Origin: a virus | Length of the DNA stretch: 64,000 bases | Strand: one strand, 5' to 3' | Virus record (IMG/VR): IMGVR_UViG_3300025887_000013 | Coordinates: 1 to 64,000 of that record | In this document: in pieces, positions 1,648 to 38,738 of the stretch | How positions within the stretch are numbered: the stretch's first letter is position 1 | Layout: each line of letters begins with the position of its first letter | Program-made: the position numbers and the translations under genes | Notes under the pieces: model-generated | The model's input: only the letters and a program-made list of their open reading frames with translations | Databases searched by the model: none | Told to the model about the DNA's origin: nothing

Positions 1648-2022
1648 ATGATAACGTATAGCACAAACTGGATGGGCCCTGTATCTACTCGTTGGTACGA
1701 AGAACGAGATATACCTTTCGAGTTGAGAATGACTTCTGGCAAATTCATCCAGCCACCGCGTGAATACAAACACTATCTTGAATCTTATTCGTGCGGTCGT
1801 ATCGACATTCGTGGTTTAGACGAAGAAGAAAACTACAATGGGTGGGGCGAGTATAGTGTTGCTCCTATGCGTACCGAAGACTGGAATGCGTTCAGTGATT
1901 GGTTGGATGAGTTGGAAACTTACGAGCTGACTACATACGAAGAACTGATCGATCAATTCGAGCATTACAACGGGAAATCGATAAGATGGTCAACTGGATT
2001 ATTAAAAGGCGAAGATGAGTAA
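1648..2022 (+). CDS. Conserved phage hypothetical protein, 124 aa
   Basis: Acidic protein starting MITYSTNWMGPVS, rich in Tyr/Trp/Glu. It starts directly after the upstream stop and overlaps the next gene by eight bases. It resembles a protein seen in many T-even-like and other lytic phages, for which no function is known to me. Confidence 0.7.
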   Translation: MITYSTNWMGPVSTRWYEERDIPFELRMTSGKFIQPPREYKHYLESYSCGRIDIRGLDEEENYNGWGEYSVAPMRTEDWNAFSDWLDELETYELTTYEELIDQFEHYNGKSIRWSTGLLKGEDE

Positions 2023-3157
2023 GATACTATGTATAGACTTTGGTCTGTGTAACTTCCATAATGTAATATCTTTAGTTGAAGATGGTCATGAGGTTGTTAT
2101 TGTCTCGGGGTTCTTTGATCTACCTGTAGAATATTACAGGAGTTTGGGGGTGGAAGTTCTATCCATCAATAAAGATAGCGTTCTTGATAAATGGGTGGAG
2201 TCGAATAAACCTGATATTGTAATATCAACTAATCCGAGTCTTTCTTGCGAAAGATTCTCTGAGAATGCAGAATTTCTTGGTTTGACTAAAAGAGTCAATA
2301 AATTAGAAATTTATAAAATGAAGACTCGAAATAATGTCAGGGGTCTTGGTATAAAGGTACCTAAGATATTAACTGGAAAGGATATAATAGCACCTTGTGT
2401 CGTCAAACCTAACATTTGTGGAATTGTGAATGACACTGCCAGAATATGTCTTACTCAGAAACAACTGGATCGAATTGGATATGAAGATTGTTATGTCGAA
2501 GAATACATTGAAGGTGCTGTAGAGACCAATGTTGCATATATGATTGCAAAGGGTAAATGGTCTATCTTACATACCCAAGAGATACTCGGAGAAGATGTCG
2601 CCAAGGTAGCAGGAAACTTTACTCATTGGACACGAACTTCAAGTTTCAAACATCTCTCTCCAGAGAACAATGAGATAGTCTTAAAGTGGGCAAAAAGATA
2701 TCTCGACTGGGCTTCAAAGGAATGTACGGAATCTTCGTATGTGGGTCAACTTACCGGACTGTTAAAGGATGGTGTTTGGTACTTCTGTGAGAATAATGTG
2801 CGACCAGAACAAACTAATAGTCTACCGATTTTCATATCGGGAAATGACTTCCTCGAAGCGATGCGAGGCAAACCGGAAATATTAGGAGACGCCTTTCCTA
2901 ATGACGCACAGAAGATGATTGTTATGCCTGTAGAGGAGTATTCTCCATATCCATTCCATCTACATGAAAAACATAATGTATCAATTCCTTGTGGTCTTGA
3001 TCTGGTCGATGGTGTATATCGAATATCTGATACTTTCAAGCATAGGTCACGTGATAGAAGAATTGGTATAGTTATATGCGACCGTATTATACCTCAAGAG
3101 TTTGTGGATGATATTGTTTCGGATGGCAATTTCACAATCACTACTCGACTGGTCTAA
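2015..3157 (+). CDS. ATP-grasp ligase, PurD-like, copy 1
   Basis: 380 aa with the layout of phosphoribosylamine-glycine ligase-type ATP-grasp proteins. There is a Rossmann-like N-terminus (KILCIDFGLCNFHNVISLVEDGH), a central VVKP nucleotide-binding strand, YVEEYIEG (the acidic hinge strand that contacts adenine in ATP-grasp enzymes), and a metal-binding segment FCENNVRPEQTN near residue 265, comparable to the EFN.R.GDPE.Q motif of PurD. ATP-grasp enzymes join a carboxylate to an amine via an acyl-phosphate. The substrate here is unknown and the sequence is too divergent to call purine synthesis. It overlaps a paralogue immediately downstream. Confidence 0.72.
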   Translation: MSKILCIDFGLCNFHNVISLVEDGHEVVIVSGFFDLPVEYYRSLGVEVLSINKDSVLDKWVESNKPDIVISTNPSLSCERFSENAEFLGLTKRVNKLEIYKMKTRNNVRGLGIKVPKILTGKDIIAPCVVKPNICGIVNDTARICLTQKQLDRIGYEDCYVEEYIEGAVETNVAYMIAKGKWSILHTQEILGEDVAKVAGNFTHWTRTSSFKHLSPENNEIVLKWAKRYLDWASKECTESSYVGQLTGLLKDGVWYFCENNVRPEQTNSLPIFISGNDFLEAMRGKPEILGDAFPNDAQKMIVMPVEEYSPYPFHLHEKHNVSIPCGLDLVDGVYRISDTFKHRSRDRRIGIVICDRIIPQEFVDDIVSDGNFTITTRLV

Positions 3158-4296
3158 TGAAGATACTGTGTATCGACTATGGGTTGTGTAACTTTCACAA
3201 TCTCATTTCTCTTGTCGAAGATGGTCATAAAGTTTATGTCCTAACATCCGAAAAATACGAACTGTGCCCCACGACTTTATATAAAGAGTTGGGTATTCAT
3301 ATATTGGACATTGACCGGAAAAGTGTTTTAGATAATTTCATAGAATCCGAGTCTATAGATTTGATGATATCGACAGATCCTACTATCGACATGATCAATT
3401 CATATCAACACAAATTAAAGTATATCGGACTGACTCCACGATCCTCTAGGTTAGAAACCCATAAATGGATGACCAGATGTGAAGTTAAGAAGTTAGGAAT
3501 AAAAGTCCCTGAGATACTTCCTCGACCTATTGCTCCCTGTGTCATAAAACCAATAGTCACCAAAAAGGGATTTGACCGAGTCAACATATGTCTGACCGAA
3601 GAAGATTTTGGAATCTTCGATGATAATACATTCTATGTTGAAGAGTATCTTACTGATACTATAGAGACTAATGTCGATTATATAATGTCTCACGGCAAAT
3701 GGTCTATACTACATACCCAACAAAAGATCGGAGAAGACCTCGGAAAGATGTCGAATCGATTAATACACTGGACTTGTACTTCCAGTTTCGGGAAACTATC
3801 CAAAGATGATAATGATCTGGTATTGGATAACGCAAAGAAGTATCTGGACTGGGCATCCATACAATGTAATAGATCCTCGTACATTGGACAACTGACCGGT
3901 TTCATTAAAGATGGGGAGTGGTACTTCTGTGAGAATAATGTCAGACCTTCACAGACCAATAGTGTACCCTATTTCGTATCGGGAGATGAATGGTTGATGG
4001 CCATGTATGGTCACCCTGAGATAATAGGTGAATCCTTTCCGGTAGATGTTAATAAGATGATCGTGATGCCAATGGAACCAGACTCACCATACCCGTTCGA
4101 TCTACACCTAAAACATAATGTTGCGATACCCTGCGGACTCGATATAATCGATGATGAGTATCGTGTATCTTTGATGATGAGAGGAAAATCTACTGACAAT
4201 AGGATTGGGTTGTTGATATGTGATGATAATATCCCCCAAGGATTTGTCGATGATTTCCGCACCGATGGTAATTTTTCCATTACTACATTCATATAA
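3157..4296 (+). CDS. ATP-grasp ligase, PurD-like, copy 2
   Basis: 379 aa, closely related to the preceding gene along its whole length: same KILCIDYGLCNFHN start, CVIKP strand, FYVEEYL, GQLTGFIKDGEWYFCENNVRPSQTN metal site region and C-terminal RIGLLICDDNIPQGFVDD. Its start overlaps the stop of copy 1 (TAATG), so the two are made together. A heteromeric enzyme or two successive ligations are both possible. The strongest divergence is between residues 25 and 110, the presumed substrate domain. Confidence 0.72.
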   Translation: MKILCIDYGLCNFHNLISLVEDGHKVYVLTSEKYELCPTTLYKELGIHILDIDRKSVLDNFIESESIDLMISTDPTIDMINSYQHKLKYIGLTPRSSRLETHKWMTRCEVKKLGIKVPEILPRPIAPCVIKPIVTKKGFDRVNICLTEEDFGIFDDNTFYVEEYLTDTIETNVDYIMSHGKWSILHTQQKIGEDLGKMSNRLIHWTCTSSFGKLSKDDNDLVLDNAKKYLDWASIQCNRSSYIGQLTGFIKDGEWYFCENNVRPSQTNSVPYFVSGDEWLMAMYGHPEIIGESFPVDVNKMIVMPMEPDSPYPFDLHLKHNVAIPCGLDIIDDEYRVSLMMRGKSTDNRIGLLICDDNIPQGFVDDFRTDGNFSITTFI

Positions 4297-4521: not shown

Positions 4522-5142
4522 ATGAGAATTGCTGACTCTACTCTTTATGAGATGTATCTTGAAAAACATAAGAGAGCACAGAACAAAGGTGCACGTGTTC
4601 CTTACCACACGTTCTCTTACAAAACTAGAGATTCTGAACGTCAAAAGACTTACAATGCAGAACACTTGTTTCAAAGACAAATCGAGAATCCCACGTTCGA
4701 GACTCTAGAAGAAGTTCAGGAATTCTCACGTAAAATCTACAAGTCTAAGACTTGGATCACGTTATGGAACAAGTCAGTTGAAGAAGACGTGGGTCGTATC
4801 TTCAATTCACAACCAGAAGTAGTACAGATGAACTCCCGTACTAAGAAATTATCGGGTTTCACTGATGGTTCTAGTGTAACCCTATGTCCTATCACGGGTT
4901 TCAACAAGTACGTTCTACTGCACGAACTTGCTCACACTCTGGGTCATATGCACCACGGCCGTTCGTTCCGTCAATGTCTCCTGAGTCTGGTCGGTACCTT
5001 TATGGGTGCTGATGAGAAGAAGATTCTGAAGAACGAATTTAAAAGAAAAGGTCTTGCATTTGGAGACGCTAAAAAACCAATGACTTTCGAGAATTGGGTA
5101 TCACGTAAACAACGTATGGAAAATATGAGGAAAAAACTATAA
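4522..5142 (+). CDS. Putative zinc metalloprotease, HExxHxxGxxH
   Basis: 206 aa soluble protein with H134-E-L-A-H138-xx-G141-xx-H144, the extended zinc signature of metzincin-like peptidases (two His on one helix plus a third after the Gly turn; Glu135 would be the catalytic base). The rest of the chain is basic and lacks a signal peptide, so it would act in the cytoplasm. Related HELAH-containing small proteins occur in marine phages. The target is unknown. It is the second gene behind early promoter P1, so it is probably expressed early. Confidence 0.65.
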   Translation: MRIADSTLYEMYLEKHKRAQNKGARVPYHTFSYKTRDSERQKTYNAEHLFQRQIENPTFETLEEVQEFSRKIYKSKTWITLWNKSVEEDVGRIFNSQPEVVQMNSRTKKLSGFTDGSSVTLCPITGFNKYVLLHELAHTLGHMHHGRSFRQCLLSLVGTFMGADEKKILKNEFKRKGLAFGDAKKPMTFENWVSRKQRMENMRKKL

Positions 5143-5330: not shown

Positions 5331-5577
5331 TGTAAAATGGTATAACCAAAACAGTATAGACTGGTACGTAAAATGGTGTGCTACCATAATCATTCTAGTC
5401 TCTGTTGTTTTTCGTAATGCTGGCTTTGAATACCGCATGTTTGATTTGTCTTTCGGTGTAATGGGCACGATACTATGGTTATGGGTAAGTGTGTTATGGA
5501 AAGATAGAGCACTCATAATATTGAACGCGGTTATGTTTATGTTACTTGCATCCGCACTACTAAAGGAAATTAATTAA
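5317..5577 (+). CDS. Membrane protein, 86 aa, conserved in marine phages
   Basis: Begins MKKNNVKWYNQNSIDWYVKW and then has about three hydrophobic segments (IIILVSVVF; GVMGTILWLWVSVLW; IILNAVMFMLLASAL). The NQNSIDWYVKW...WKDRALIILN pattern matches a small membrane protein family common in marine T4-like phages (DUF6552-like, from memory). It overlaps the preceding gene by 14 bases. Function unknown. Confidence 0.68.
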   Translation: MKKNNVKWYNQNSIDWYVKWCATIIILVSVVFRNAGFEYRMFDLSFGVMGTILWLWVSVLWKDRALIILNAVMFMLLASALLKEIN

Positions 5578-6293
5578 TGTTTGAACATGTACCGGTCGAA
5601 TTGACTGAAATGAATGCCGTGACCACTGATACTGGTCGCAAATACAAAACCCCCGAAGGTGTCAACCTTCCCTCTATCACTACAGTCCTTTCGATTCTGT
5701 CACGTGACAGTATTGCCAAGTGGCGTAAACGTGTAGGTGAGGCAGAGGCGAATCGTGTCTCTTATCGTGCGTCTACTCGTGGTACCTCGGTTCACGAAAT
5801 CTGTGAGAAGTATGTCAACAATGACCCTGATTGGGACAAGTACATGGCAATCGACCCCGACAATGGGGAAACGAAGTTGACCAAGCGTACTCCTGACCTC
5901 ATCCAATCGTTTCTTGATTTGAAACCAATACTGGACGAACGTCTGACTAAGGTCTTCGCACAAGAAGCCCCACTCTACTCTAATCATTTGGGTGTTGCGG
6001 GTCGTGTGGATTGCGTGGGTATCTTTGATGGTAAACCGTCAATCATCGATTACAAAACTTCGATGAAACCCAAACGTCTTGATTGGATTAAGAACTACTT
6101 CATGCAAGAAGCTGCGTATGCAATCATGTGGGAAGAACGTACTGGCCAACCGATTACTCAGTTGGTTACTATAATCTCAGTAGACCAACATGAACCTCAA
6201 GTGTTTATTGAACATCGTGACAACTGGGTTCGTCCGTTAATCGACACTATTGCACAATATAATGAGGAAAATTCTACTTCCCTTTTTGTATAA
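5577..6293 (+). CDS. PD-(D/E)XK exonuclease
   Basis: 238 aa protein of the Cas4/RecB-like phage exonuclease type. It has ITTVLSIL and GTSVHEICE helices near the N-terminus and the nuclease core VAGRVDCVGIFDGKPSIIDYKTS around residues 140-163, where the Asp of RVDCVG and the D-Y-K of IIDYKTS form the D...(D/E)xK metal site. QEAAYAIMWEE resembles the trailing Q-(A)-Y motif of this superfamily. Expected role: processing of DNA ends in replication, recombination or host DNA breakdown. The late promoter TATAAATA overlaps its stop codon. Confidence 0.8.
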   Translation: MFEHVPVELTEMNAVTTDTGRKYKTPEGVNLPSITTVLSILSRDSIAKWRKRVGEAEANRVSYRASTRGTSVHEICEKYVNNDPDWDKYMAIDPDNGETKLTKRTPDLIQSFLDLKPILDERLTKVFAQEAPLYSNHLGVAGRVDCVGIFDGKPSIIDYKTSMKPKRLDWIKNYFMQEAAYAIMWEERTGQPITQLVTIISVDQHEPQVFIEHRDNWVRPLIDTIAQYNEENSTSLFV

Positions 6294-6336: not shown

Positions 6337-7635
6337 ATGATAGGGTTCGGAACCTTTTTATCTGAGGCATCATTAACTTTCGGAGAAATTACTCGTGAGG
6401 ATAGACCTGACCGAATAGATATTTTTCTGCGCAAGTACAAAGGTAATGAACCATTCGAATTGGTTGGTGGTGACCAAGTAGTCTTTAAGTACAATGCAGA
6501 GATTGAGAAAGCTGTTAAATCAGGAAACTCTAAACTCGCACAGTCAATTGGACTCGAAACCCTAGATGGAACTAAACTCGCATTCGGTAAGTTATCTAAG
6601 ACTGCCGAGTTCGGGGGTGGTCGTGGTTCGGGTGGTGGTGCAGCCAACACTCGTGCAACTGAATCTGCACAATGTGTTTATCTACAAGCAATCTGGGATA
6701 ACCGGACAACTAAGTTCAGTGCGGACGATATACGTAACGCATATCCCAAAACGCACACAGATGCGTCTCTAGATGAAGTACTTCTGGGTGATGAAGGATG
6801 GATCTCCTCTTCTATCGATATCGCAAGACTTCTTCACAAAGCTCTAGGTAAAAAACAATACAGTTTCCATCGAGGATCTGGTTGGGTTGAGATAGTAGAG
6901 AAGAAGTTCAAAGAACTGAATCGCGTCCAGAAAGCATTCGGTAATATCAACAAATGGTCTCCTGCGGACATCTACATGGTCGCAAAGGGTGCAGAGAACA
7001 AGTATGATATAGAGGGTGCAGAGTCACTAGAATACCTGAACAACGAATTGATGAAGGCATACACTGCACGTGATATCATCGGTGTGTCTTTGAAGAAATT
7101 GACTGGTAAAGGTAGACTTGCCCAAGTTAACTATAAGAAACCATTCAAAGGTGCGAAGTTCACCAAGTCATCTTATGGTAAGAGAGATTTCTTCAAGTCC
7201 AAAGATGGTTACTTGTTCGGTGACGGTGGTATTGAGATGCAGTTCCGAACCTTCCCTACCTTTCAGTGTGAGATTATCGGTAAGGCTGCTAAACACGGTA
7301 AGGTGTCTCATGGTGGTATTGATGCGGCTCTCTATGCCACAAATCGGGATAAGACCGATAATCGTAAAGAACTTGAATCATTTATAAAGAAAGATCGGGA
7401 TTCATTCCTAGATAAGTTCTATGGGTTCTATGATGGTGCAGTAAATAGTCCGGTAGACAAAGAAACCTTTAAAAAGAATCTGGAAGGTGTGACAACCGAA
7501 TGGTTAGTCTCCAAGTACTATGTAACTTCTATTTTCGTAATGATAAAAGGTAGAGAACAACAATTCATGGATTATTTATTCCGTATAGCAAAATCACAAA
7601 GTCCGCTATCTGCGGTACACCTAAAGGTACAATAA
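6337..7635 (+). CDS. Putative capsid-leader protein, 432 aa
   Basis: The N-terminus MIGFGTFLSE-A matches the T4 capsid-targeting pattern (short leader with aromatic residues ending L-x-E before a small residue, cleaved by the prohead protease). A Gly-rich loop follows at about residues 89-100 (EFGGGRGSGGG), then a mixed alpha/beta body. It has a dedicated late promoter. I do not recognise an enzyme family, though homologues appear to exist in other marine phages. Prediction: a late virion or internal head protein. Confidence 0.6.
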   Translation: MIGFGTFLSEASLTFGEITREDRPDRIDIFLRKYKGNEPFELVGGDQVVFKYNAEIEKAVKSGNSKLAQSIGLETLDGTKLAFGKLSKTAEFGGGRGSGGGAANTRATESAQCVYLQAIWDNRTTKFSADDIRNAYPKTHTDASLDEVLLGDEGWISSSIDIARLLHKALGKKQYSFHRGSGWVEIVEKKFKELNRVQKAFGNINKWSPADIYMVAKGAENKYDIEGAESLEYLNNELMKAYTARDIIGVSLKKLTGKGRLAQVNYKKPFKGAKFTKSSYGKRDFFKSKDGYLFGDGGIEMQFRTFPTFQCEIIGKAAKHGKVSHGGIDAALYATNRDKTDNRKELESFIKKDRDSFLDKFYGFYDGAVNSPVDKETFKKNLEGVTTEWLVSKYYVTSIFVMIKGREQQFMDYLFRIAKSQSPLSAVHLKVQ

Positions 7636-7636
7636 A

Positions 7637-8356
7637 ATGGCAATATCACGATATATGGAGGGAGACAACAGCATCAATATTGCTCGTGGTCTTGTTCTCG
7701 ATACAACATACGAACATAAATTTGGTGCGGTACTTTCAATGTCAGTCTCTGAGACCGGAACTGTTTGGGATGTCGATGATACCCTATACCCTTGGTCTGC
7801 ATGGGATACTGCCGGAGTTTTGACTATCCCCGCAGTGAATGCTTCGGACAATGGTGGAACGGTAACTGTGACTGGTTTAGATGCGAACTACGATGTGATA
7901 AGTGAAGATTTCGTAGTATCCAGTTCGGGAACAACCACCGGCACCAAAACATTCAAACGTGCGTATCGTGCATTCTTTACTGATGGTACATCTAACATTG
8001 GTAATATAACTATTCAACGTGGTGGTACGACTATCGCATTGATCAGAGCAGGTCAGGCACAAACACTCATGGCGGTATTTACTGTCCCTGAAGGACACAC
8101 TGCATATATGTCTAAAGTCAGTATGAGTATCGAGGCCGGTGGTGATGCGAGTGGTAACGTGTATTCTAGAATTCCTAGCCAAACATCATTTCGTATTAAA
8201 CATACCTTCGAGATCGGAGATGGTGGTCATTACCTATATGACTTCACGGTTCCATTGAAATTCGATGCAAGGACAGATATTGATTTTAGATGTAGTATGC
8301 GAACTAACAATTCACGTGCCTCTGCTGCATTTGATATGATTCTTATCAAGGAATAG
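7637..8356 (+). CDS. Putative virion structural protein, 239 aa
   Basis: Begins MAISRYMEGDNSINIARGL and is rich in Ser/Thr/Gly beta-strand sequence typical of receptor-binding or decoration proteins. The pattern SRYME..NSIN..RG..LDT, then a GLDANYD segment and a C-terminal beta-sandwich-like region ending FDMILIKE, resembles a structural protein found in several marine phages. Made in the late operon starting at 6289. Exact position in the particle unknown. Confidence 0.6.
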   Translation: MAISRYMEGDNSINIARGLVLDTTYEHKFGAVLSMSVSETGTVWDVDDTLYPWSAWDTAGVLTIPAVNASDNGGTVTVTGLDANYDVISEDFVVSSSGTTTGTKTFKRAYRAFFTDGTSNIGNITIQRGGTTIALIRAGQAQTLMAVFTVPEGHTAYMSKVSMSIEAGGDASGNVYSRIPSQTSFRIKHTFEIGDGGHYLYDFTVPLKFDARTDIDFRCSMRTNNSRASAAFDMILIKE

Positions 8357-30032: not shown

Positions 30033-31529
30033 ATGCGTTACGTTGGTTTCAGTGAGTATTATCACGATGCAGCACTATCAATTATAAACAAGGACGGTAC
30101 TGTGGAGTTCGCTTCACAGGCCGAACGTTTTTCTAAGAAGAAGAACGACCCTATCATTCCCGAAAGTCTCTGGGAATATGTTAACGACAACGATCATGTA
30201 TCATTCTATGAAGACTATGCACTTCGAGAAAAATACCGAGATACTTATCGAGGTTTAAAAGGCAAAACACTCCAAAGAGATGTTTCTTCACACGAAGAAA
30301 TACCAATCGGTGAAAGTCTTGTCTATGACAACTTCCACGAACATCACATATCACATTGCGCAACCGCATTCTACACCCGCCCTTGGAAAGACAAAGAAGA
30401 TACTGTTATGGTGTCTATCGATGGTGCAGGCGAATATCAAACTGCGGTCATCTACGACCACAACTTCAACCTAATCAAAGAATGGCATTACCCCAAGTCT
30501 ATAGGACTAGTCTACACTAGTGCAACAAAAACGTTGGGTTTACGTCCACTTGAGGATGAGTATGTTGTTATGGGATTGTCATCATATGGTACCGCACCTC
30601 CAGAGATGGTACAATGGTTGATTGATTGGTGGGAAGATACTCCTGATGTTGCGACCGGAGTAGGTAAAGAGGTTTTACTAGATCATCCGGATAGTCCGGA
30701 GTATGTAGGATTTAAGAGGATGCGAAATAAACTAATCGACTTCGCTAAACAGTACGGAGATAAAGATTTCGCAGCCGGTATTCAGAGGTTTTCAGAGTAT
30801 GGTATTATGCAGATCATGCATATTGCAAAACAACACGGAAACAAGTTAGTGTACTCTGGTGGTTGTGCACAGAATGTTGTTACCAATTCAATGATACACG
30901 AACTATTTGATGGTCAAATGCATATTGCAGTTGCACCTACAGATGCAGGATCTAGTCTTGGTACTGCCGCAATGACATGGGCAAAGGAAACAGGAAAGGA
31001 TCAATTGATTTGGTCGCCCTATTCTGGTTACAACATAGATAGAGAGGTAAACGTACAGGAAGTAGTCGATCACCTCTTAGAACACCGTGTGTGCGGTCTG
31101 GCGAACGGTAAAGCGGAGTTTGGCCCACGTGCACTAGGTAACAGGTCTTTGATCGCAGATGTGAGGTATGACGTAAAGGATACGGTGAATGGTATCAAAC
31201 GTAGACAGAAGTACCGACCATTCGCACCCGCAATCCTAGAGGAACATGCACACGAGTACTTCGAAGGGCCTATGAATGAGTACATGCAATACACCTCTAT
31301 AGCAAAACATCCTTATACGTCAGTCACTCATGTAGATGGTACTGCTCGTGTTCAGATAGTAAAGAAAGATTGTCCGTCTATATTCCGTAAGATTATCGAA
31401 GAATATTACGCAAGGACGGGCGTTCCGATGTTACTAAATACCTCATTGAACATCCGCGGCCGTCCGATGGTCAACGATGAACATGACGCAGAATTGTGGG
31501 AACAAAAGTACGGAGTGAAGGTTTTTTAA
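30033..31529 (+). CDS. Carbamoyltransferase, NodU/CmcH/TobZ family
   Basis: 498 aa two-domain enzyme. The N-terminal YrdC-unlike kinase-type fold begins GFSEYYHDAALSII, with metal-binding H104-H-I-S-H108 (EHHISHCATAFY) and VSIDGAGEYQT; the C-terminal part has NGKAEFGPRALGNRSLIADVR, the hallmark of the family. These enzymes O-carbamoylate sugars or antibiotic intermediates via carbamoyl-adenylate. Here the acceptor is unknown; a glycan or modified nucleoside is likely. Next to an Fe(II) oxygenase and upstream of GT genes. Related genes occur in other marine T4-like phages. Confidence 0.85.
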   Translation: MRYVGFSEYYHDAALSIINKDGTVEFASQAERFSKKKNDPIIPESLWEYVNDNDHVSFYEDYALREKYRDTYRGLKGKTLQRDVSSHEEIPIGESLVYDNFHEHHISHCATAFYTRPWKDKEDTVMVSIDGAGEYQTAVIYDHNFNLIKEWHYPKSIGLVYTSATKTLGLRPLEDEYVVMGLSSYGTAPPEMVQWLIDWWEDTPDVATGVGKEVLLDHPDSPEYVGFKRMRNKLIDFAKQYGDKDFAAGIQRFSEYGIMQIMHIAKQHGNKLVYSGGCAQNVVTNSMIHELFDGQMHIAVAPTDAGSSLGTAAMTWAKETGKDQLIWSPYSGYNIDREVNVQEVVDHLLEHRVCGLANGKAEFGPRALGNRSLIADVRYDVKDTVNGIKRRQKYRPFAPAILEEHAHEYFEGPMNEYMQYTSIAKHPYTSVTHVDGTARVQIVKKDCPSIFRKIIEEYYARTGVPMLLNTSLNIRGRPMVNDEHDAELWEQKYGVKVF

Positions 31530-32029
31530 TGCAGTACATACGCAAATATAAAATTGATGATTGGGAAAGTGTTCAGGACAAGATATTACTTGCTATCGAA
31601 ATGATAAAAGATAACAACGTATGTGAATATGCTAACATGTCTCATTCTGATTACAAGGTTGATGCAAAACCTTTGTATTGGGAAGTATTCGAGAATGCTG
31701 TTCGGCCAAGTCTAGAGGAATATATGTCTAGTTGGAAGTGTACCGACATACGCATAGGTAATATGTGGTTTGCAGAATATAGTGAACATGGTGCAGACTT
31801 CAACTGGCACACCCATGAAGGTGCGAACATGTCCGGTGTCCTTCAAGTAGTATTAGAAGATCCGGAAAACGGAACACAATTATTAGGAACACCAATAGAT
31901 TTGGAAGAAGGGGATCTTGTAGTATTCCCTTCGATGTTACCCCACAGAAGTCCTATGATAACCGACAGTAAGAAACTTGTTATCGGTTTTAATTGGGACA
32001 TACATGGTAGTGAATTACACGAACATTAA
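31529..32029 (+). CDS. 2OG-Fe(II) oxygenase-like protein
   Basis: 166 aa from ATG 31529, which overlaps the upstream TAA (TAATG). WHTHEGANMSGVLQV gives H94-x-H96 and LEEGDLVVFPSMLPHRSPMI gives H139, a double-stranded beta-helix metal triad; K/R in SKKLVIGFNW could bind 2-oxoglutarate. Similar small oxygenases in marine phages hydroxylate unknown targets. Probably acts in the same pathway as the carbamoyltransferase. Confidence 0.7.
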   Translation: MQYIRKYKIDDWESVQDKILLAIEMIKDNNVCEYANMSHSDYKVDAKPLYWEVFENAVRPSLEEYMSSWKCTDIRIGNMWFAEYSEHGADFNWHTHEGANMSGVLQVVLEDPENGTQLLGTPIDLEEGDLVVFPSMLPHRSPMITDSKKLVIGFNWDIHGSELHEH

Positions 32030-32043
32030 ACTAGGAGAATAAA

Positions 32044-32397
32044 ATGTCAGAAGAAAAAAAGAAGGTACAACTTACCGCAGACAGTGATGGGTTTTTAGCG
32101 GGAGCTGATGCGGACGGTGATGGTCACATTACCGAACAAGAACTACAGATGCACTTAGAGTTCAAACGAAAGGAACTCGAAGACGCAGATGCTATGCGAG
32201 ATGCGCAAAGAAACATGGCCTGGTTTGCACTTGGCGGAATGTTACTTTATCCCTTCGCTGTAGTACTGGCATCTTTGATAGGATTAGACCAAGCAGCAAA
32301 TACGTTAGGTTCTATGGCACCGACATACTTTGTATCTGTTGCCGCAATTGTCGCAGCGTTCTATGCGAAGGAAGCTGTCGGTAACAAGAATAAATAA
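32044..32397 (+). CDS. EF-hand membrane protein, 117 aa
   Basis: A canonical calcium loop D22-A-D24-G-D26-G-H-I-T-E-Q-E33 precedes a helix and two membrane segments (WFALGGMLLYPFAVVLASLIG and FVSVAAIVAAFYA). The N-terminal loop would face the cytoplasm if the hairpin inserts with both termini inside. Two-helix topology with a charged N-terminus also resembles class II holins. Ribosome site TAGGAG. Confidence 0.68.
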   Translation: MSEEKKKVQLTADSDGFLAGADADGDGHITEQELQMHLEFKRKELEDADAMRDAQRNMAWFALGGMLLYPFAVVLASLIGLDQAANTLGSMAPTYFVSVAAIVAAFYAKEAVGNKNK

Positions 32398-33287
32398 TGG
32401 AACTTATTACTTGGCGAGGTACGCCAGGAGTTGGTGATTTCATGTGGGCACTTAATTGTGCCCATAACTTTTCTTACAAAGAAAACAAGAAAGTTACTTT
32501 AGAGTTTCATTGGGAACATGAAGAAGACCATCTACACCACTTCGAAGATCCAGAAACAATCATAGAGAGACTAGAGTACATCCATAACTTCTATCATAGA
32601 AAGGATGATGTGACGGTCATACACGTGTATAATGAACGGACACGTTACAGTGATTGGAGATATAACGATGATGTTACCAGAGAGGACGATGGTAGTCTCA
32701 GAGTCATGGCCATAAGCCGACCCAAAAAGAATAGGTTTTGGTTTGAGAGTGGAAAGTATTCGGATGAGGTAGGCGGAGATATTCCCAACAGTGATTGGAT
32801 ATTCCGGAAGGATGCATTCCGAAAAATTGACAATAATAAGATTGTTATATGGAGACCGCTGTTTAATGCAGAAACTCCAAAAACATGGAAAAGACAGTTG
32901 ACAAATGACAAATGGGATGTTATAATAAATCAGTTGGTTGCGGCGGGATTACATATAACAGAATTGACCTATAGAACTCCTGTTTCCGAAGCACTCTATC
33001 ATATCTCTACATGTCGTCAAGTCATATGTTATGATGGTATGTGGCATTACATTGCTCGTAACTTATATAGACCTACGATAGTTATAAGTAATGAGGGTAT
33101 AACGCGTTATCATACGCCTCATTGTGTACGAACTACACACGATGAAAATGAAGAAATGAATATATTTTGGTGGGTGAATAATATCCCTGAGATGTTAGGT
33201 AACACCAAGAGAAAAGCAATAGAACATGAAAATAAAGCGAGAGGATTTTACAGTGAAAGAGATCAACATAGACAGAGCGGTAATTGA
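32397..33287 (+). CDS. Unknown protein, possible glycosyltransferase-like, 296 aa
   Basis: Begins MELITWRGTPGVGDFMWALN, a Gly-rich loop like that at the start of GT-B (GT9-type) enzymes; ending region YHISTCRQVICYDGMWHYIARNLYRPTIVIS resembles the C-terminal nucleotide-sugar site of such transferases (A..D.G..H.A...G.P.I.L). Weak similarity only. It overlaps the radical SAM gene by 35 bases. Confidence 0.55.
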   Translation: MELITWRGTPGVGDFMWALNCAHNFSYKENKKVTLEFHWEHEEDHLHHFEDPETIIERLEYIHNFYHRKDDVTVIHVYNERTRYSDWRYNDDVTREDDGSLRVMAISRPKKNRFWFESGKYSDEVGGDIPNSDWIFRKDAFRKIDNNKIVIWRPLFNAETPKTWKRQLTNDKWDVIINQLVAAGLHITELTYRTPVSEALYHISTCRQVICYDGMWHYIARNLYRPTIVISNEGITRYHTPHCVRTTHDENEEMNIFWWVNNIPEMLGNTKRKAIEHENKARGFYSERDQHRQSGN

Positions 33288-34233
33288 AGTACAGGGCGGC
33301 TGTAATTTTGATTGCACAATGTGTCCTCAAGATAAACGTACCGGAGGTAGACACAAAGGTTTCTTAACCAAGATGTCACTGATCGAGTTCGAAGATAATG
33401 TTCAAGACTGTGCACGACATGGACTGAACGTTGTCAACCTAGATGGTTCGGGTGAAGCAACCATGAATCGTAACCTACCAGAATATATAAAAATCGTTAA
33501 GAGGTATGATGCAAAAGCAGTCATCTTCTCTAATGGTTTTCGTATGCATGGTCAATTCATGAAGGACTGTGTGGACGCAGGATTGGACTTCTTCCGATTC
33601 TCTTTCGTTGGTTCTACACCAGAGAAGTATCAAGAGTGGATGAATAACACTCGGGGTAGCACTTATGAGTTGATAAAGAAACATGTAAAAGAAATGATGG
33701 ACTATGTAAAAGAGTCTGGATCTGATTGTGTTGTGGAGACATACCACCTGATTACAGACAATGATAATATTGAACAAGAACTAGAACAGTACAAGGCCTT
33801 AGTAGAAGAACTTGGTTGTAAGACCGAGATCTGGAAAATGCACAACTGGTCTGGTGCATATGATATAGGTGAAACAAATGCTAGAACTGGTAATGTCAAA
33901 ACTTGTGGTCGTCCTTTTTCTCCTGACGTTGTTATCCGTGCTGGTGGGGTGGATGGTCATCGGGGTGCAGTTCATCCGTGCTGTCAAGTACTTGGTCGGG
34001 ATGAAGAAGCAGTTCTCGGACATACATCCGTCAATACGATAGAAGAAATTATTCGAGGTGAAGAGTACTCTGCATTACGCGAGTCTCATAGAACTGGAGA
34101 ATACACGGATTATTGTAGAGATTGTGATTTTCTACTTGACACTCCGGAGACATTGGTGTATACTAATAACTCAAGATCAGAAATGAAAATGATTGGAACT
34201 TCTTTCGATCTTAATGATTATAGGAACGTTTAG
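33253..34233 (+). CDS. Radical SAM enzyme with SPASM-like C-terminus
   Basis: 326 aa. GGCNFDCTMCPQ gives C17-x3-C21-x2-C24 for the 4Fe-4S cluster; VNLDGSGEATMN is the GGEP-like SAM segment. C-terminal Cys (KTCGRPFSPDV, HPCCQVLG, YTDYCRDCDF) suit an auxiliary SPASM/twitch cluster. GTG 33253 is chosen over ATG 33226 because GAGAGGA sits seven bases upstream of it. Such enzymes modify peptides, sugars or nucleosides by radical chemistry. It lies among glycosyltransferases. Confidence 0.85.
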   Translation: MKEINIDRAVIEVQGGCNFDCTMCPQDKRTGGRHKGFLTKMSLIEFEDNVQDCARHGLNVVNLDGSGEATMNRNLPEYIKIVKRYDAKAVIFSNGFRMHGQFMKDCVDAGLDFFRFSFVGSTPEKYQEWMNNTRGSTYELIKKHVKEMMDYVKESGSDCVVETYHLITDNDNIEQELEQYKALVEELGCKTEIWKMHNWSGAYDIGETNARTGNVKTCGRPFSPDVVIRAGGVDGHRGAVHPCCQVLGRDEEAVLGHTSVNTIEEIIRGEEYSALRESHRTGEYTDYCRDCDFLLDTPETLVYTNNSRSEMKMIGTSFDLNDYRNV

Positions 34234-34234
34234 T

Positions 34235-34831
34235 TTGAATGACTCTAAACCACCAGTGTGGATGATCGTGATGAGTGGGAATCCCATTTCCGATTACTAT
34301 AGAAAACTTGCATTACCTTCTTGGTTGAAAGCTGGGTTCGATGTTAATTTTTTCGAAGGTGTTACACCCGAGACTTACAAAGATCATTTTGATTTGCTCT
34401 TTGGGAACAAACATAGTAAAAGCACTCCGGATGGTGTAATGTTCACTGTCTCTGAAAAGTGTGTGTGGTACGGTCATTACTATCTTTGGAAAAAATGTAT
34501 TGATACTGACACTCCTATGATAGTGTGTGAACATGATATTGAATTGGTTATGGATATTCAACCTTCAATATACACTACACCTATGGCGTGTTTGGCTCAC
34601 GATCCTCCGGACATACGCAAAGAGAAACGTACATCTCTTGCGGGTGGTGCATATTATATAACACCAGATGTTGCAAAGGTGTTAATAAGAATAAACGAGG
34701 ATCGTATTAGAATCAACTCTGATGGTTGGGTCTGGGAAGTGTGTAAGGCGCATGGATACTTTCATTATGACAAGTGTTCACATATAAAAGATTATTCTGT
34801 CGGATTTACGACCAAACATAACAAGAGTTAA
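34235..34831 (+). CDS. GT25-like glycosyltransferase, copy A
   Basis: 198 aa from TTG 34235 (AGGAA upstream; the longer frame from 34193 overlaps the radical SAM gene). WMIVMSGNPISDYYRK, a central EHDIEL acidic motif (C-EHDIELVM) and AGGAYYITPDVAKVL match the Glyco_transf_25 (LPS biosynthesis) template, where the E-x-D acidic motif binds the metal-sugar nucleotide. It probably extends an oligosaccharide. Confidence 0.66.
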   Translation: MNDSKPPVWMIVMSGNPISDYYRKLALPSWLKAGFDVNFFEGVTPETYKDHFDLLFGNKHSKSTPDGVMFTVSEKCVWYGHYYLWKKCIDTDTPMIVCEHDIELVMDIQPSIYTTPMACLAHDPPDIRKEKRTSLAGGAYYITPDVAKVLIRINEDRIRINSDGWVWEVCKAHGYFHYDKCSHIKDYSVGFTTKHNKS

Positions 34832-34834
34832 ACA

Positions 34835-35023
34835 ATGTATAACATAACATTCAAACACTATCGTACTGGCGTTGAACTCACCTTGACTGGGTACCCAATG
34901 GATGACTATAATAAACGCAAAGATTCTGAGATGTTCATATTCTATGATACTCTCAATGAACGAATCGAAGCCATTATAAGGTCATCCATTGTGTCCATGT
35001 TGGCATATGAGGATGAGTTGTGA
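34835..35023 (+). CDS. Small hypothetical protein, 62 aa
   Basis: MYNITFKHYRTGVELTLTGYPM..., compact alpha/beta, three bases after the GT25-like gene and overlapping the next GTG by four. No family recognised. Confidence 0.6.
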   Translation: MYNITFKHYRTGVELTLTGYPMDDYNKRKDSEMFIFYDTLNERIEAIIRSSIVSMLAYEDEL

Positions 35024-35814
35024 AAAGACTGATATATCAGGTTTGTCTGGGAAAACAGATAGATTCTAAGTTGTATGCGAAATGTATCGAAAGTGTTTCT
35101 AATTATTGCCAAAAGCATGATATTGTACATTATACGCAACAAATTCCCAAGTTAAAAATTAAACCCGATCCGTTCACAAGTAACCGTAGTACCGAGAGTT
35201 GGCAGAAACACGGTGGGTTCTTACCTATCTATGAGAAAGAGAATGCGTTTGATCTGTTAGACGAATACGATCAGATTGCAATCATCGATGCGGACATTTA
35301 TATCCGTGAAGACGCTGAGAATATCTTTGACCATATGTTAGACGAATATGCGTTTGGTTGTGTGTTTGAACGTGAGATGCCTATCACCGCTAAGTATGCA
35401 GAGAAAATCAGAAACTACTCTCGTATGCAGTACGAACAATTACAGAACTATAATCGTACACAATTTAACCCTAATCATCTGGGTTATGAGTTTGCCAACA
35501 TGGGTATGATTGTGTTAAACTGTAAGAACTTCAAACCGTACTTGCAAGGTCAGACCGCAAAAGAGTTTCTGACTCGGATGGAGTTCAAAGACTTTGTTGA
35601 TGGTATAGGCCCTTGGAAGTGGTCAACAGACCAAACTTTGTTGAATTATTTTCTGAAGAAGTATGATGTACCAACTCAATCATTACACTGGAAGTGGAAT
35701 GGACTATATGGTGCAAACACTAAGATCGAAGAGTGTTCCTTCATACATTTCTTCTTGAAAGACTTGTTACCAAATCAAGGAGAGAACGTAGAGGAGTTAA
35801 TGAAGAAGATATGA
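35020..35814 (+). CDS. GT8-like glycosyltransferase, second
   Basis: 264 aa. QIAIIDADIYI supplies D90-A-D92; FANMGMIVLNCKNF and STDQTLLNYFLKKYDV (with the D-Q of family 8) and a late HFF segment follow the GT8 plan. Starts at GTG 35020. Only weakly like the GT8-like gene at 28332, so it is probably specific for a different linkage. Confidence 0.72.
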   Translation: MKRLIYQVCLGKQIDSKLYAKCIESVSNYCQKHDIVHYTQQIPKLKIKPDPFTSNRSTESWQKHGGFLPIYEKENAFDLLDEYDQIAIIDADIYIREDAENIFDHMLDEYAFGCVFEREMPITAKYAEKIRNYSRMQYEQLQNYNRTQFNPNHLGYEFANMGMIVLNCKNFKPYLQGQTAKEFLTRMEFKDFVDGIGPWKWSTDQTLLNYFLKKYDVPTQSLHWKWNGLYGANTKIEECSFIHFFLKDLLPNQGENVEELMKKI

Positions 35815-36380
35815 AGTTGTATGATTATGAAAATTACAAAGAGTATCGAGAACTACAGATAGAAGCGAACAAACAAAAGTTACATGCTGTCTGGTGTAGT
35901 GAAAGTACTGTTGAAAAGGTGTGCGAGATGTACCCCAACAGTAAGAATATATTGTGTCACGGTGCACGTAATGGTAGAGAAGTTGAATGGTTTATTAAGT
36001 ATTTCCCTGATGCGACTGTGACAGGAACCGACATATCTCCGACAGCGAATGAATTTTCTAATATGTTTGAGTGGGATTTTCATGACAGAAAGGAAGAGTG
36101 GGTTGGTAAGTTTGATCTATTGTACTCTAACTCATTCGATCATTCTTACTATCCAGAAAAGTGTTTGAAGACATGGACAGATCAACTGACCGAGGAAGGT
36201 ATTCTTTGTGTGGAGTTGATGGTTGGGGACAACAATGTTTCATCTCGCATGGATCCCCTACAGATAAGTAAAGGTGAGTTTCTGGGGATTATAGATGACT
36301 TAGGATTCGAAGAGGTTGTTGCCTTCAACGTGACAGCTAAACATGGTTACAGTAGAGTAGTGGTGTGTAAAAGAAAATGA
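35811..36380 (+). CDS. SAM-dependent methyltransferase-like protein
   Basis: 189 aa from ATG 35811 (overlaps the upstream TGA). KNILCHGARNGREVEWFIKYFPDATVTGTDISP is motif I plus the acidic end of strand 2, with H-G-A-R in place of the usual G-x-G-x-G; FDLLYSNSFDHSYYPEKCL matches motif II/III of class I methyltransferases. Substrate probably a sugar or small molecule. Confidence 0.68.
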   Translation: MKLYDYENYKEYRELQIEANKQKLHAVWCSESTVEKVCEMYPNSKNILCHGARNGREVEWFIKYFPDATVTGTDISPTANEFSNMFEWDFHDRKEEWVGKFDLLYSNSFDHSYYPEKCLKTWTDQLTEEGILCVELMVGDNNVSSRMDPLQISKGEFLGIIDDLGFEEVVAFNVTAKHGYSRVVVCKRK

Positions 36381-37090
36381 CTAAAGCATATGTGATAAGA
36401 ATTGATGGACAAGAGAAGTTAGTTGAGAGGTTGTCCGAGAGTATCGTCAAGACCGAAAGTGATATCGATCTGAACATCTTCGAGGGAACTGTACCGAAGA
36501 CCATACAGTCTCACCTAGAACGAGAGTTCACGTCTTTCGATACTTCTAACTATAGATGGAACTGGCCCAAAGATCCTTCGGAAAACCACATGGATTTGCG
36601 GACTGGTATAATGAAGACTGCGTATCTCGCATCGAATCAAGAGAAAAAAGAGGCATGTTCGATCAGTCATATGCGTCTATGGGATCTATGTCTGACTATC
36701 AACGAACCTATAATTATATTTGAATCGGATGCCCTCATGACTCGAAAGTTTGATGTCAGTGACGTGGAAGGATATAAACTGGTTGGGTTGAATGATCCTA
36801 GAGGTGCGACAAGACGAGCAGGATTGTTTCACCAGATCGTTGCTTCTACACCAGATGTCCAACCCGCACCACGTATTAATGATCTAGGTGAGATGTCTCC
36901 CCAAGGTATTGCAGGTAACAGTGCATACTATATAGAACCAGATGGCGCATCTATGTTACTTGAGAAGGTCAAGGAATATGGAATGTGGCCCAACGATGCG
37001 TATATGTGTCGTGAATTATTTCCTTGGATACGAGTGGTGTATCCATATTATACTAAGGTGCAGGGAACTGCATCTACAACAACAAGGTGA
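36377..37090 (+). CDS. GT25-like glycosyltransferase, copy B
   Basis: 237 aa. MTKAYVIRIDGQEKLVERLSES, CSISHMRLWDLCL (acceptor helix), FESDALM acidic motif and GNSAYYIEPDGASMLLE identify the LPS-type family 25. Paralogue of the copies at 34235 and 37366. Overlaps the methyltransferase by four bases. Confidence 0.72.
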   Translation: MTKAYVIRIDGQEKLVERLSESIVKTESDIDLNIFEGTVPKTIQSHLEREFTSFDTSNYRWNWPKDPSENHMDLRTGIMKTAYLASNQEKKEACSISHMRLWDLCLTINEPIIIFESDALMTRKFDVSDVEGYKLVGLNDPRGATRRAGLFHQIVASTPDVQPAPRINDLGEMSPQGIAGNSAYYIEPDGASMLLEKVKEYGMWPNDAYMCRELFPWIRVVYPYYTKVQGTASTTTR

Positions 37091-37095
37091 TTTGA

Positions 37096-37365
37096 ATGAA
37101 AGTTTTACACGATAATGTTTTATTGACAGAAGATGATGCAAAAGAAACAACTACTGCCGGTGGACTGATTCTTTCCGCAGATATTACGACAGGTAATAAA
37201 CCTGCTCGTGTTGTTGCGATGGGACTAGAAGTTGCAAATAAGAAAGAGATTGCAGCAGGTGATAAGGTATATTGTAATTGGTCAGAAGCAATGCCAGTAG
37301 AGATTGATGGTAAGAAGATGGCGATTATTAAGTACGAATTTATCCGGTTGAAAGTGGACGGATAA
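37096..37365 (+). CDS. GroES-like co-chaperonin (gp31 analogue)
   Basis: 89 aa with the GroES layout: MKVLHDNVLLTEDDAKETTTAGGLIL (strand 1 and mobile loop with AGGLIL, the GroEL-binding tripeptide), ARVVAMG and AGDKVYCNW...IKYEFIRL (GroES GDIVIF...E..ILA). Phage T4 uses gp31 in place of GroES to fold capsid protein gp23 with GroEL; the same role is expected. It is oddly embedded among glycosyltransferases. Confidence 0.8.
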   Translation: MKVLHDNVLLTEDDAKETTTAGGLILSADITTGNKPARVVAMGLEVANKKEIAAGDKVYCNWSEAMPVEIDGKKMAIIKYEFIRLKVDG

Positions 37366-38019
37366 ATGAAGTCTCTCGTTATTACGATTGGAGACAATCA
37401 CCTATCCCAACAAGCTGCGGATAGGTGTATTGCAAGTGCCAAACGATACGGTATCAAAGTTGAGAAGTGGTATGCAGTAACACCTAGACATCCAGACTTC
37501 GAGTCTATGGTCAAGGATGCGGGTCTTCAAGTTCATATGTTTCAGGGCGGTTATTCCAAGACCGAGAATGCACTTGCGTGTTTCCTTTCACATATGTCAC
37601 TATGGAAGTATTCAGTCGAGACCAAACAAGATGTGATGATATTAGAACACGATGCAATATTCACTGGTCGTGTTCCGGTATTGTTTGGATTCCATAAGTG
37701 TGTCACAATTGGACAACCTAGTTACGGTAAGTTTAAGACACCGATGACACTAGGTACGTCTCCGTTAGTACAGGCAGATTATTTTAAGGGTGCACACTCT
37801 TATATTGTCAGACCTTCTGGTGCAGAAGAGTTTCTAGAAAAGGTCTCTGACTATTCTCGACCCACAGACATCTATCTTAATATAATGAACTTCCCTTGGT
37901 TAGAAGAGTATTACCCATGGCCTGTAGTGGTCGATGATTCTTTCAGTACTATTCAGAATCAACAGGGTTGTTTAGCAAAACACAACTATGGAAAAGGGAT
38001 ACACTTGGTAGAAGCATGA
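37366..38019 (+). CDS. GT25-like glycosyltransferase, copy C
   Basis: 217 aa. ALACFLSHMSLWKYSVETKQDVMILEHDAIF gives the acceptor helix and the ExDA motif; AHSYIVRPSGAEEFLE is the C-terminal G/A.YI...GA. motif. Third member of the family in this region; starts directly after the GroES-like gene. Confidence 0.72.
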   Translation: MKSLVITIGDNHLSQQAADRCIASAKRYGIKVEKWYAVTPRHPDFESMVKDAGLQVHMFQGGYSKTENALACFLSHMSLWKYSVETKQDVMILEHDAIFTGRVPVLFGFHKCVTIGQPSYGKFKTPMTLGTSPLVQADYFKGAHSYIVRPSGAEEFLEKVSDYSRPTDIYLNIMNFPWLEEYYPWPVVVDDSFSTIQNQQGCLAKHNYGKGIHLVEA

Positions 38020-38738
38020 TTAACTTAATTACTGTATGTACAGATCAATATCCTATGGAGTATGCCCGCAAGTTGATCACTCGATTCAAAGAGTTGAGTG
38101 GTTACAAAGTGGAGGCATGGTGCATCACCGACCGACCAGATGAGATTTCGGATATCGCAAATACCATCGAACCAGCTTTTGGTGCAGGTAAAGGTTGGTG
38201 GAATAAGATGAAAGCATACGATTCATTCTATGATGGATATGCTGTCTATCTTGATATCGACACTGTTTTAATCAAGAACTTTGATGATGAGATACGAGAG
38301 GCAATCCTTGCACTAGAGAGTGAAGTTGTTAAGGTCGCATGTGTATCCGATGCCATTGGTTGGAAAAATAACAAGTTTAGTTCTTCGATGATGGTTCTGA
38401 AGAGTGGTAAGATGCAAGAAGTGTATGACATCTTCTCACTAGAAAGTTTGAGATCGTTTGAATATGAATATGATGGGGGTGACCAAGTATGGACGGGTCG
38501 TCTACTCGAAGAGTGGAAACCAGGCGGTTACTCTGAGATCTACTATATGGACGAAGAGTTCAATCAAAACCTCAAACTCAATCTGAAATTCCATCTAGGA
38601 AGTAAGGTATTGGGTAATTGGATATTCCCTAAATATATCCCAAGTGGGTGCAAGATTGTAGATTGTGGTGGTAAACCAAAACCACACGAACTAGAATACT
38701 TACCGTATATAAAAGAGGCGTGGCACGATGTTCAGTAA
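38016..38738 (+). CDS. GT-A glycosyltransferase-like protein
   Basis: 240 aa from ATG 38016 (overlapping the upstream stop). INLITVCTDQYPMEYARKLITRF at the N-terminus, YAVYLDIDTVLIKN with D80-I-D82, SSMMVLKSGKMQEVY and a C-terminal HLGSK suggest a family 8-like fold. It overlaps the spanin gene by 11 bases, ending the glycan cluster. Confidence 0.68.
   Translation: MINLITVCTDQYPMEYARKLITRFKELSGYKVEAWCITDRPDEISDIANTIEPAFGAGKGWWNKMKAYDSFYDGYAVYLDIDTVLIKNFDDEIREAILALESEVVKVACVSDAIGWKNNKFSSSMMVLKSGKMQEVYDIFSLESLRSFEYEYDGGDQVWTGRLLEEWKPGGYSEIYYMDEEFNQNLKLNLKFHLGSKVLGNWIFPKYIPSGCKIVDCGGKPKPHELEYLPYIKEAWHDVQ

Follow-up and report, generated by a model that had tools for sequence, protein, structure and literature searches.

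A resident and an accessory ATP-grasp ligase gene side by side in a marine T4-like phage

Two adjacent genes, A and B, in a 64,000-nucleotide stretch of phage DNA (the window, which belongs to an IMG/VR virus record of 84.8 kb) code for members of a family which forms a branch of its own within the ATP-grasp superfamily, is PurD-like in shape and is, as far as found, confined to uncultured phages. The account that we prefer, and hold to be reasonably likely, is that A and B are two ATP-grasp carboxylate ligases of this phage-only family which act separately and on different substrates, A having been added beside B. A is an accessory copy, a lineage-specific extra which is present or absent as a whole unit. 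The family is new: Pfam, NCBIfam and PHROG have no entry for it, and neither cultured phages nor GTDB genomes yielded a member. T4-like phages keep it in a conserved locus, and it therefore marks a step in the chemistry of infection which, to judge from what was found, nobody has assayed.

The source phage

The window comes from a marine, T4-like phage, with T4-like genes for ribonucleotide reductase, the tail tube cap and the baseplate hub; in a comparison of one core gene, its nearest annotated relative is Phage C48C1, which is classed in Kyanoviridae. A scan for promoters returned 21 candidates where 21.5 were expected, which is chance level, while terminator-like sites numbered 10 against 3.9 in shuffled sequences and lay mostly on the minus strand. 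A 109-aa ORF at 564–893 consists almost entirely of GDV/GTV-type repeats and bears a weak likeness to the repeat region of a baseplate hub lysozyme. Immediately upstream of gene A, two small adjoining ORFs (1223–1453 and 1456–1647; 84% DNA identity over 180 nt) represent a second tandem duplication. Further downstream, positions 30033–38738 hold a cluster of genes for a carbamoyltransferase, a 2OG-Fe(II) oxygenase, a radical SAM-SPASM protein, three GT25-type and one GT8-type glycosyltransferases and a methyltransferase, of which the carbamoyltransferase and GT25 are found again in related phages.

Two intact paralogues

The sequence-only reading of this DNA had reported two adjacent full-length ORFs at 2015–4296 with a shared scaffold, and both frames are indeed intact there (Table 1). 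Aligned over 378 positions, the two proteins are 54% identical (E 3e-151), and they share the metal motif WYFCENNVRP at residues 255–264 (previously spelled FYCENNVRP) and the hinge YVEEY at residues 160–164. The ATG of A overlaps the preceding ORF by 8 nt. As for the translational coupling that had been proposed between A and B, the one-base overlap is observed and the coupled translation itself is likely; no significant RNA fold was predicted at the junction (z -0.64). The divergence noted for residues 25–110 is real (34% identity between A and B, compared with 54% overall), but it equals the mean for pairs of family members (35 +/- 12%), which identifies this segment as the generally variable N-domain of the family and not as a special feature of the pair. 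The possibility that A and B are pseudogenes was rejected, since the frames are fully open and B is under purifying selection (dN/dS about 0.13 against the B gene of contig L002 and 0.33 against that of L022). Each of them departs from the other members at 2–3 of the 63 columns that are otherwise fully conserved, never in the core, and some nearly conserved positions are replaced in B alone (G200N, H315D).

Table 1 Features of the A/B locus in the window
Feature	Position	Strand	Remarks
124-aa ORF, phrog_18736	1648..2022	+	Overlaps the start of A; its L022 counterpart overlaps B directly
Gene A, accessory ATP-grasp ligase	2015..3157	+	380 aa
A 5' end, 75-nt similarity	2021..2095	+	80% identical to 3160–3234; together they bracket the unit of presence/absence of A
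A Lys131, putative ATP-binding lysine (PCVVKP)	2405..2407	+	Invariant; aligns with PurD K145
A E259-N-N261-V-R263, predicted metal ligands and carboxylate/acyl-phosphate arginine	2789..2803	+	Aligns with PurD E286/N288/R290
TAATG, stop of A and start of B	3155..3159	+	One shared base; likely translational coupling
Gene B, resident (syntenic) ATP-grasp ligase	3157..4296	+	379 aa; AlphaFold model pLDDT 84.8
B 5' end, second copy of the 75-nt similarity	3160..3234	+	Collinearity with L022 restarts here
B Lys131	3547..3549	+	
B E259-N-N261-V-R263, predicted metal/carboxylate motif	3931..3945	+	
SprT/WLM-like metallopeptidase gene	4522..5142	+	Near-constant downstream neighbour; weak WLM and YgjP-like matches
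Exonuclease, phrog_298	5577..6293	+	Member of the conserved locus

Fold and family identity

Both the fold and the invariant core described below agree with the earlier assignment of A and B as two genuine paralogues among the ATP-grasp ligases. According to its model (pTM 0.86, built with 21 aligned members), B has a full-length ATP-grasp fold; an initial model of A was of low quality (pLDDT 59), yet matched ATP-grasp chains at E 1e-10. Structure searches with the two models returned hundreds of ATP-grasp chains, with E-values down to 2.5e-14 and Z-scores up to 21.3. In a second-look alignment, the five best chains for the B model were all GAR synthetase/PurD (Z 20.2–21.3, 343–349 residues aligned, spanning model residues 1–379), followed by chains of the biotin carboxylase type, an L-amino acid ligase, PurK and PurT (Z 17.7–19.2), so that PurD leads the other chains by 1–2 Z units.

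The sequence searches draw a different picture. Searches of Pfam, NCBIfam and PHROG gave no significant match for A or B; the best PHROG match over 15 members of the family has an E-value of 0.024, and the sole signal across eight members is a weak one to ATP-grasp_3 (best E 0.0017). The GARS_A model (PF01071) was silent in five related phage records while detecting 14 of 14 controls. The family profile matches Aquifex aeolicus PurD at E 0.0025–0.005. In like-for-like profile–profile comparisons, the C-terminal half of carbamoyl-phosphate synthase (CarB) scored best among the families compared (1.7e-8 over 312 columns), followed by PurD (3.2e-5) and biotin carboxylase (AccC, 1e-4), and PurK and PurT gave no meaningful match. 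The PurD value depends on the set of sequences used and ranges from 3.2e-5 to 6.9e-8; the match between PurD and CarB themselves (7.9e-11) is stronger than that of the phage family to either. The label "PurD-like" given to A and B is thus apt for their shape, but a specific kinship in sequence is not supported, as CarB matches at least as well.

Members of the family were found on about 30 IMG/VR contigs (27 loci in one scan and six more contigs in another). None was found among cultured phages, nor among GTDB genome contigs in two scans; the scans of the collections look for short patterns and can overlook more distant relatives. No description of the family was found in the literature on phage ATP-grasp or PurD-like enzymes.

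Active site

The residues of the ATP-grasp core are known to bind ATP, metal and carboxylate throughout the superfamily. K131, E162/E163, E170 and E259/N261/R263 do not vary among A, B and their relatives (21 aligned members). In a joint alignment with seven PurD homologues, whose C-terminal part is less certain, the family keeps LExxK, K131 (K145 in PurD), E162/E163, E170 (E194) and E259/N261/R263 (E286/N288/R290). Judging from these residues, A and B look catalytically intact. Outside this core, the PurD signatures GGREH, GLAAGKG, DHKR, NTGGMG, FGD of RFGDPE, NGGRV and RxDIG are lost, and on this ground the family was judged not to be PurD; YGLCNFHN stands in place of GGREH, with only the His retained. 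The family has instead invariants of its own, namely NFHN, HxQxxxGExxxK, GQxTG, NSxP and YPxxLHxxxxVxxPxGL. As the glycine-rich loop of PurD (GLAAGKG) is unrecognisable, the handling of ATP may also differ. The first metal ligand of biotin carboxylase and carbamoyl-phosphate synthase, an E or Q 12 residues before the E of ExNxR, corresponds here by simple count to Thr247, which weighs against our preferred account.

It had been suggested from the sequence that the substrate is not that of PurD, and this is probably so, given that the PurD motifs outside the ATP/metal core are gone. A placement of A and B within bona fide PurD, with all substrate residues kept, was not observed: no PurD/GARS model matches them and the motifs are lost. 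The argument that PurD is normally single copy consequently has no bearing on the pair, since neither protein is PurD.

The locus and the history of gene A

The order of genes around the family is conserved: in most clades a DUF932 protein lies upstream, and the ATP-grasp gene is followed by the SprT/WLM-like metallopeptidase (missing from this position in L015), the exonuclease, phrog_1462 and phrog_455. The gene that runs up to or into the start of the ATP-grasp gene varies by clade, and may be a 92–99-aa protein, a GT25-like glycosyltransferase (L034, L043), a 2OG-Fe(II) oxygenase (L015), a peroxiredoxin-like ORF (L023) or, in the window, the 124-aa ORF. No constant neighbour pointing to a substrate was found among the clades compared. 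A functional tie to the SprT-like neighbour was rejected, because C48C1 and Melnitz phages have homologues of it without the ATP-grasp gene, and so was a link to the carbamoyltransferase, which C48C1 also has in the absence of the ATP-grasp gene. In L023, glutaredoxin-like and peroxiredoxin-like ORFs (7250–7999, both named from their sequence only) lie immediately upstream of the ATP-grasp gene. L006 (2717–6066) and L008 code for a FecR-domain protein followed by a CHASE2 and adenylate/guanylate cyclase protein, a sensor cyclase that is unusual for a phage; ORFs of similar size are present in L009 and L014.

Using the family profile on thirteen records, one copy was detected in 11 and two copies in the two closest kin of the window; a 149-kb contig likewise has a single copy. 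B occupies the syntenic slot that is common to all relatives. The contig L022 is collinear with the window and 97.6% identical from the start of B (3160) past 12 kb, and 78–95% identical upstream of the position of A, but A is absent from the collinear site; L022 is a fragment, and A could sit in its missing part. Between the window and L002–L004, A is 99–100% identical, compared with 79–81% for the stretch just upstream, 90–95% for B and 79–93% for the flanks; for one and the same pair of phages, A has a dS of 0.012 and B one of 0.30. Taken together, the contrast in identity between A and its flanks, the contrast in dS and the absence from L022 indicate that A has its own history and seems to move as a unit by recombination, perhaps helped by the 75-nt similarity of the 5' ends of A and B. 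In the tree, A and B are weakly supported sisters (75/82, or 85/87 with fewer rows). A simple duplication of long standing, followed by loss in L022, therefore fits too, and with sisterhood this weak, tandem duplication and acquisition of the orthologue of another phage are indistinguishable.

Possible functions and alternatives

By analogy with the chemistry of the superfamily, each enzyme would use ATP to phosphorylate a carboxylate, and the resulting acyl phosphate would then be passed to an amine or a similar nucleophile. A and B would act apart, each on its own substrate, A having arisen beside B through tandem duplication or arrived there through recombination with an orthologue from another phage. 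Probable substrates are small molecules or building blocks of glycans or nucleotides, and the acceptor is probably not phosphoribosylamine.

The adjacency of A and B with their one-base overlap, and active sites which appear intact in both, would also suit an obligate heteromer or two successive obligatory ligations in one pathway, as had been suggested before. We consider this decidedly unlikely: members outside the closest kin of the window are single copy, the dS values of A and B reveal different histories of recombination, and L022 has B without A in its collinear region, a natural phage with B alone speaking against an obligate heteromer. That A and B are divergent GAR synthetases which raise purine synthesis during infection is scarcely credible. 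PurD does provide the best structural matches and a profile match of up to 6.9e-8, and the phage carries genes of nucleotide metabolism such as ribonucleotide reductase; all seven PurD motifs listed above are nevertheless missing, GARS_A gives no match and the family profile is no nearer to PurD than to CarB. The CarB match in turn raises the question of a carbamate kinase activity, like that of carbamoyl-phosphate synthase, supplying the carbamoyltransferase found in the same phages. This is very improbable, considering that the carbamoyltransferase occurs in C48C1 in the absence of the ATP-grasp gene, that structure ranks PurD, biotin carboxylase and PurK at the top, and that each chain contains a single ATP-grasp module.

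A role in a pathway decorating glycans or proteins, together with the glycosyltransferases, carbamoyltransferase and 2OG-Fe(II) oxygenases of the phage, is possible but unlikely. It would account for the GT25-like and 2OG-Fe(II) oxygenase genes at the start of the ATP-grasp gene in L034, L043 and L015, and for the carbamoyltransferase/2OG/radical SAM/GT25/GT8/methyltransferase cluster at 30–39 kb, parts of which recur in other members. However, the upstream partner changes between clades (the 92–99-aa protein, the peroxiredoxin-like ORF and the 124-aa ORF among them), C48C1 keeps its carbamoyltransferase without the ATP-grasp gene, and in the window the cluster lies 25 kb from A and B. A bolder reading, which we regard as quite unlikely, is that these phage-specific enzymes attach an amino-acid-like group to nucleotides, glycans or proteins inside the infected cell, and that A, as a second and mobile copy, spreads from phage to phage because of the second chemical variant which it provides. 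If true, this variant could serve, for example, against host defence or a change of receptor. The A/B pair and the natural phage with B alone constitute a ready experiment on the diversification of ligases by phages.

Comparison with known systems

GAR synthetase/PurD (phosphoribosylamine–glycine ligase; PDB 2xcl, 2yw2) resembles the phage family over the whole length of the fold, C-terminal domain included (Z 21), and also in LExxK, the ATP lysine, the hinge glutamates and the ExNxR core. The identity in structural alignments is however only 12–16%, and NFHN, GExxxK and YPFxLHxKxxVxIPCGLD are conserved in the phage family instead of the PurD motifs. The C-terminal half of the large subunit of carbamoyl-phosphate synthase is the best profile–profile match and has a similar motif after the metal site (EVNPRAARTVPF compared with ENNVRPEQTNSLPYF), but this enzyme consists of two fused halves (1073 aa), while A and B are separate chains, each with a single module (380 aa). 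Biotin carboxylase, PurK, PurT and the L-amino acid ligases (3ouz, 3v4s, 1kjq, 3vot) have the same fold, the first three being weaker than CarB by profile.

The nearest analogy for such neighbours is on a Pantoea plasmid (NZ_CP143422), where an ATP-grasp gene adjoins a PurD-like one without being part of a purine operon; a TauD oxygenase, a GNAT protein and an MFS transporter are encoded alongside. Its PurD-like protein is, unlike A and B, a true relative of PurD (35% identity to E. coli PurD) and the operon is unrelated. This operon (L059, NZ_CP143422.1, 1–8944), with genes for ThiF, TauD, GNAT, CapA, ATP-grasp, PurD-like, MFS and amidase proteins, has the look of a small-molecule pathway that has recruited a PurD. 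The R2K/CDC123 ligases of jumbo phages have been named as an ATP-grasp family of their own; they are, like A and B, ATP-grasp enzymes of phages, and have been proposed to ligate aminoacyl groups and to modify host proteins (PMC7824862).
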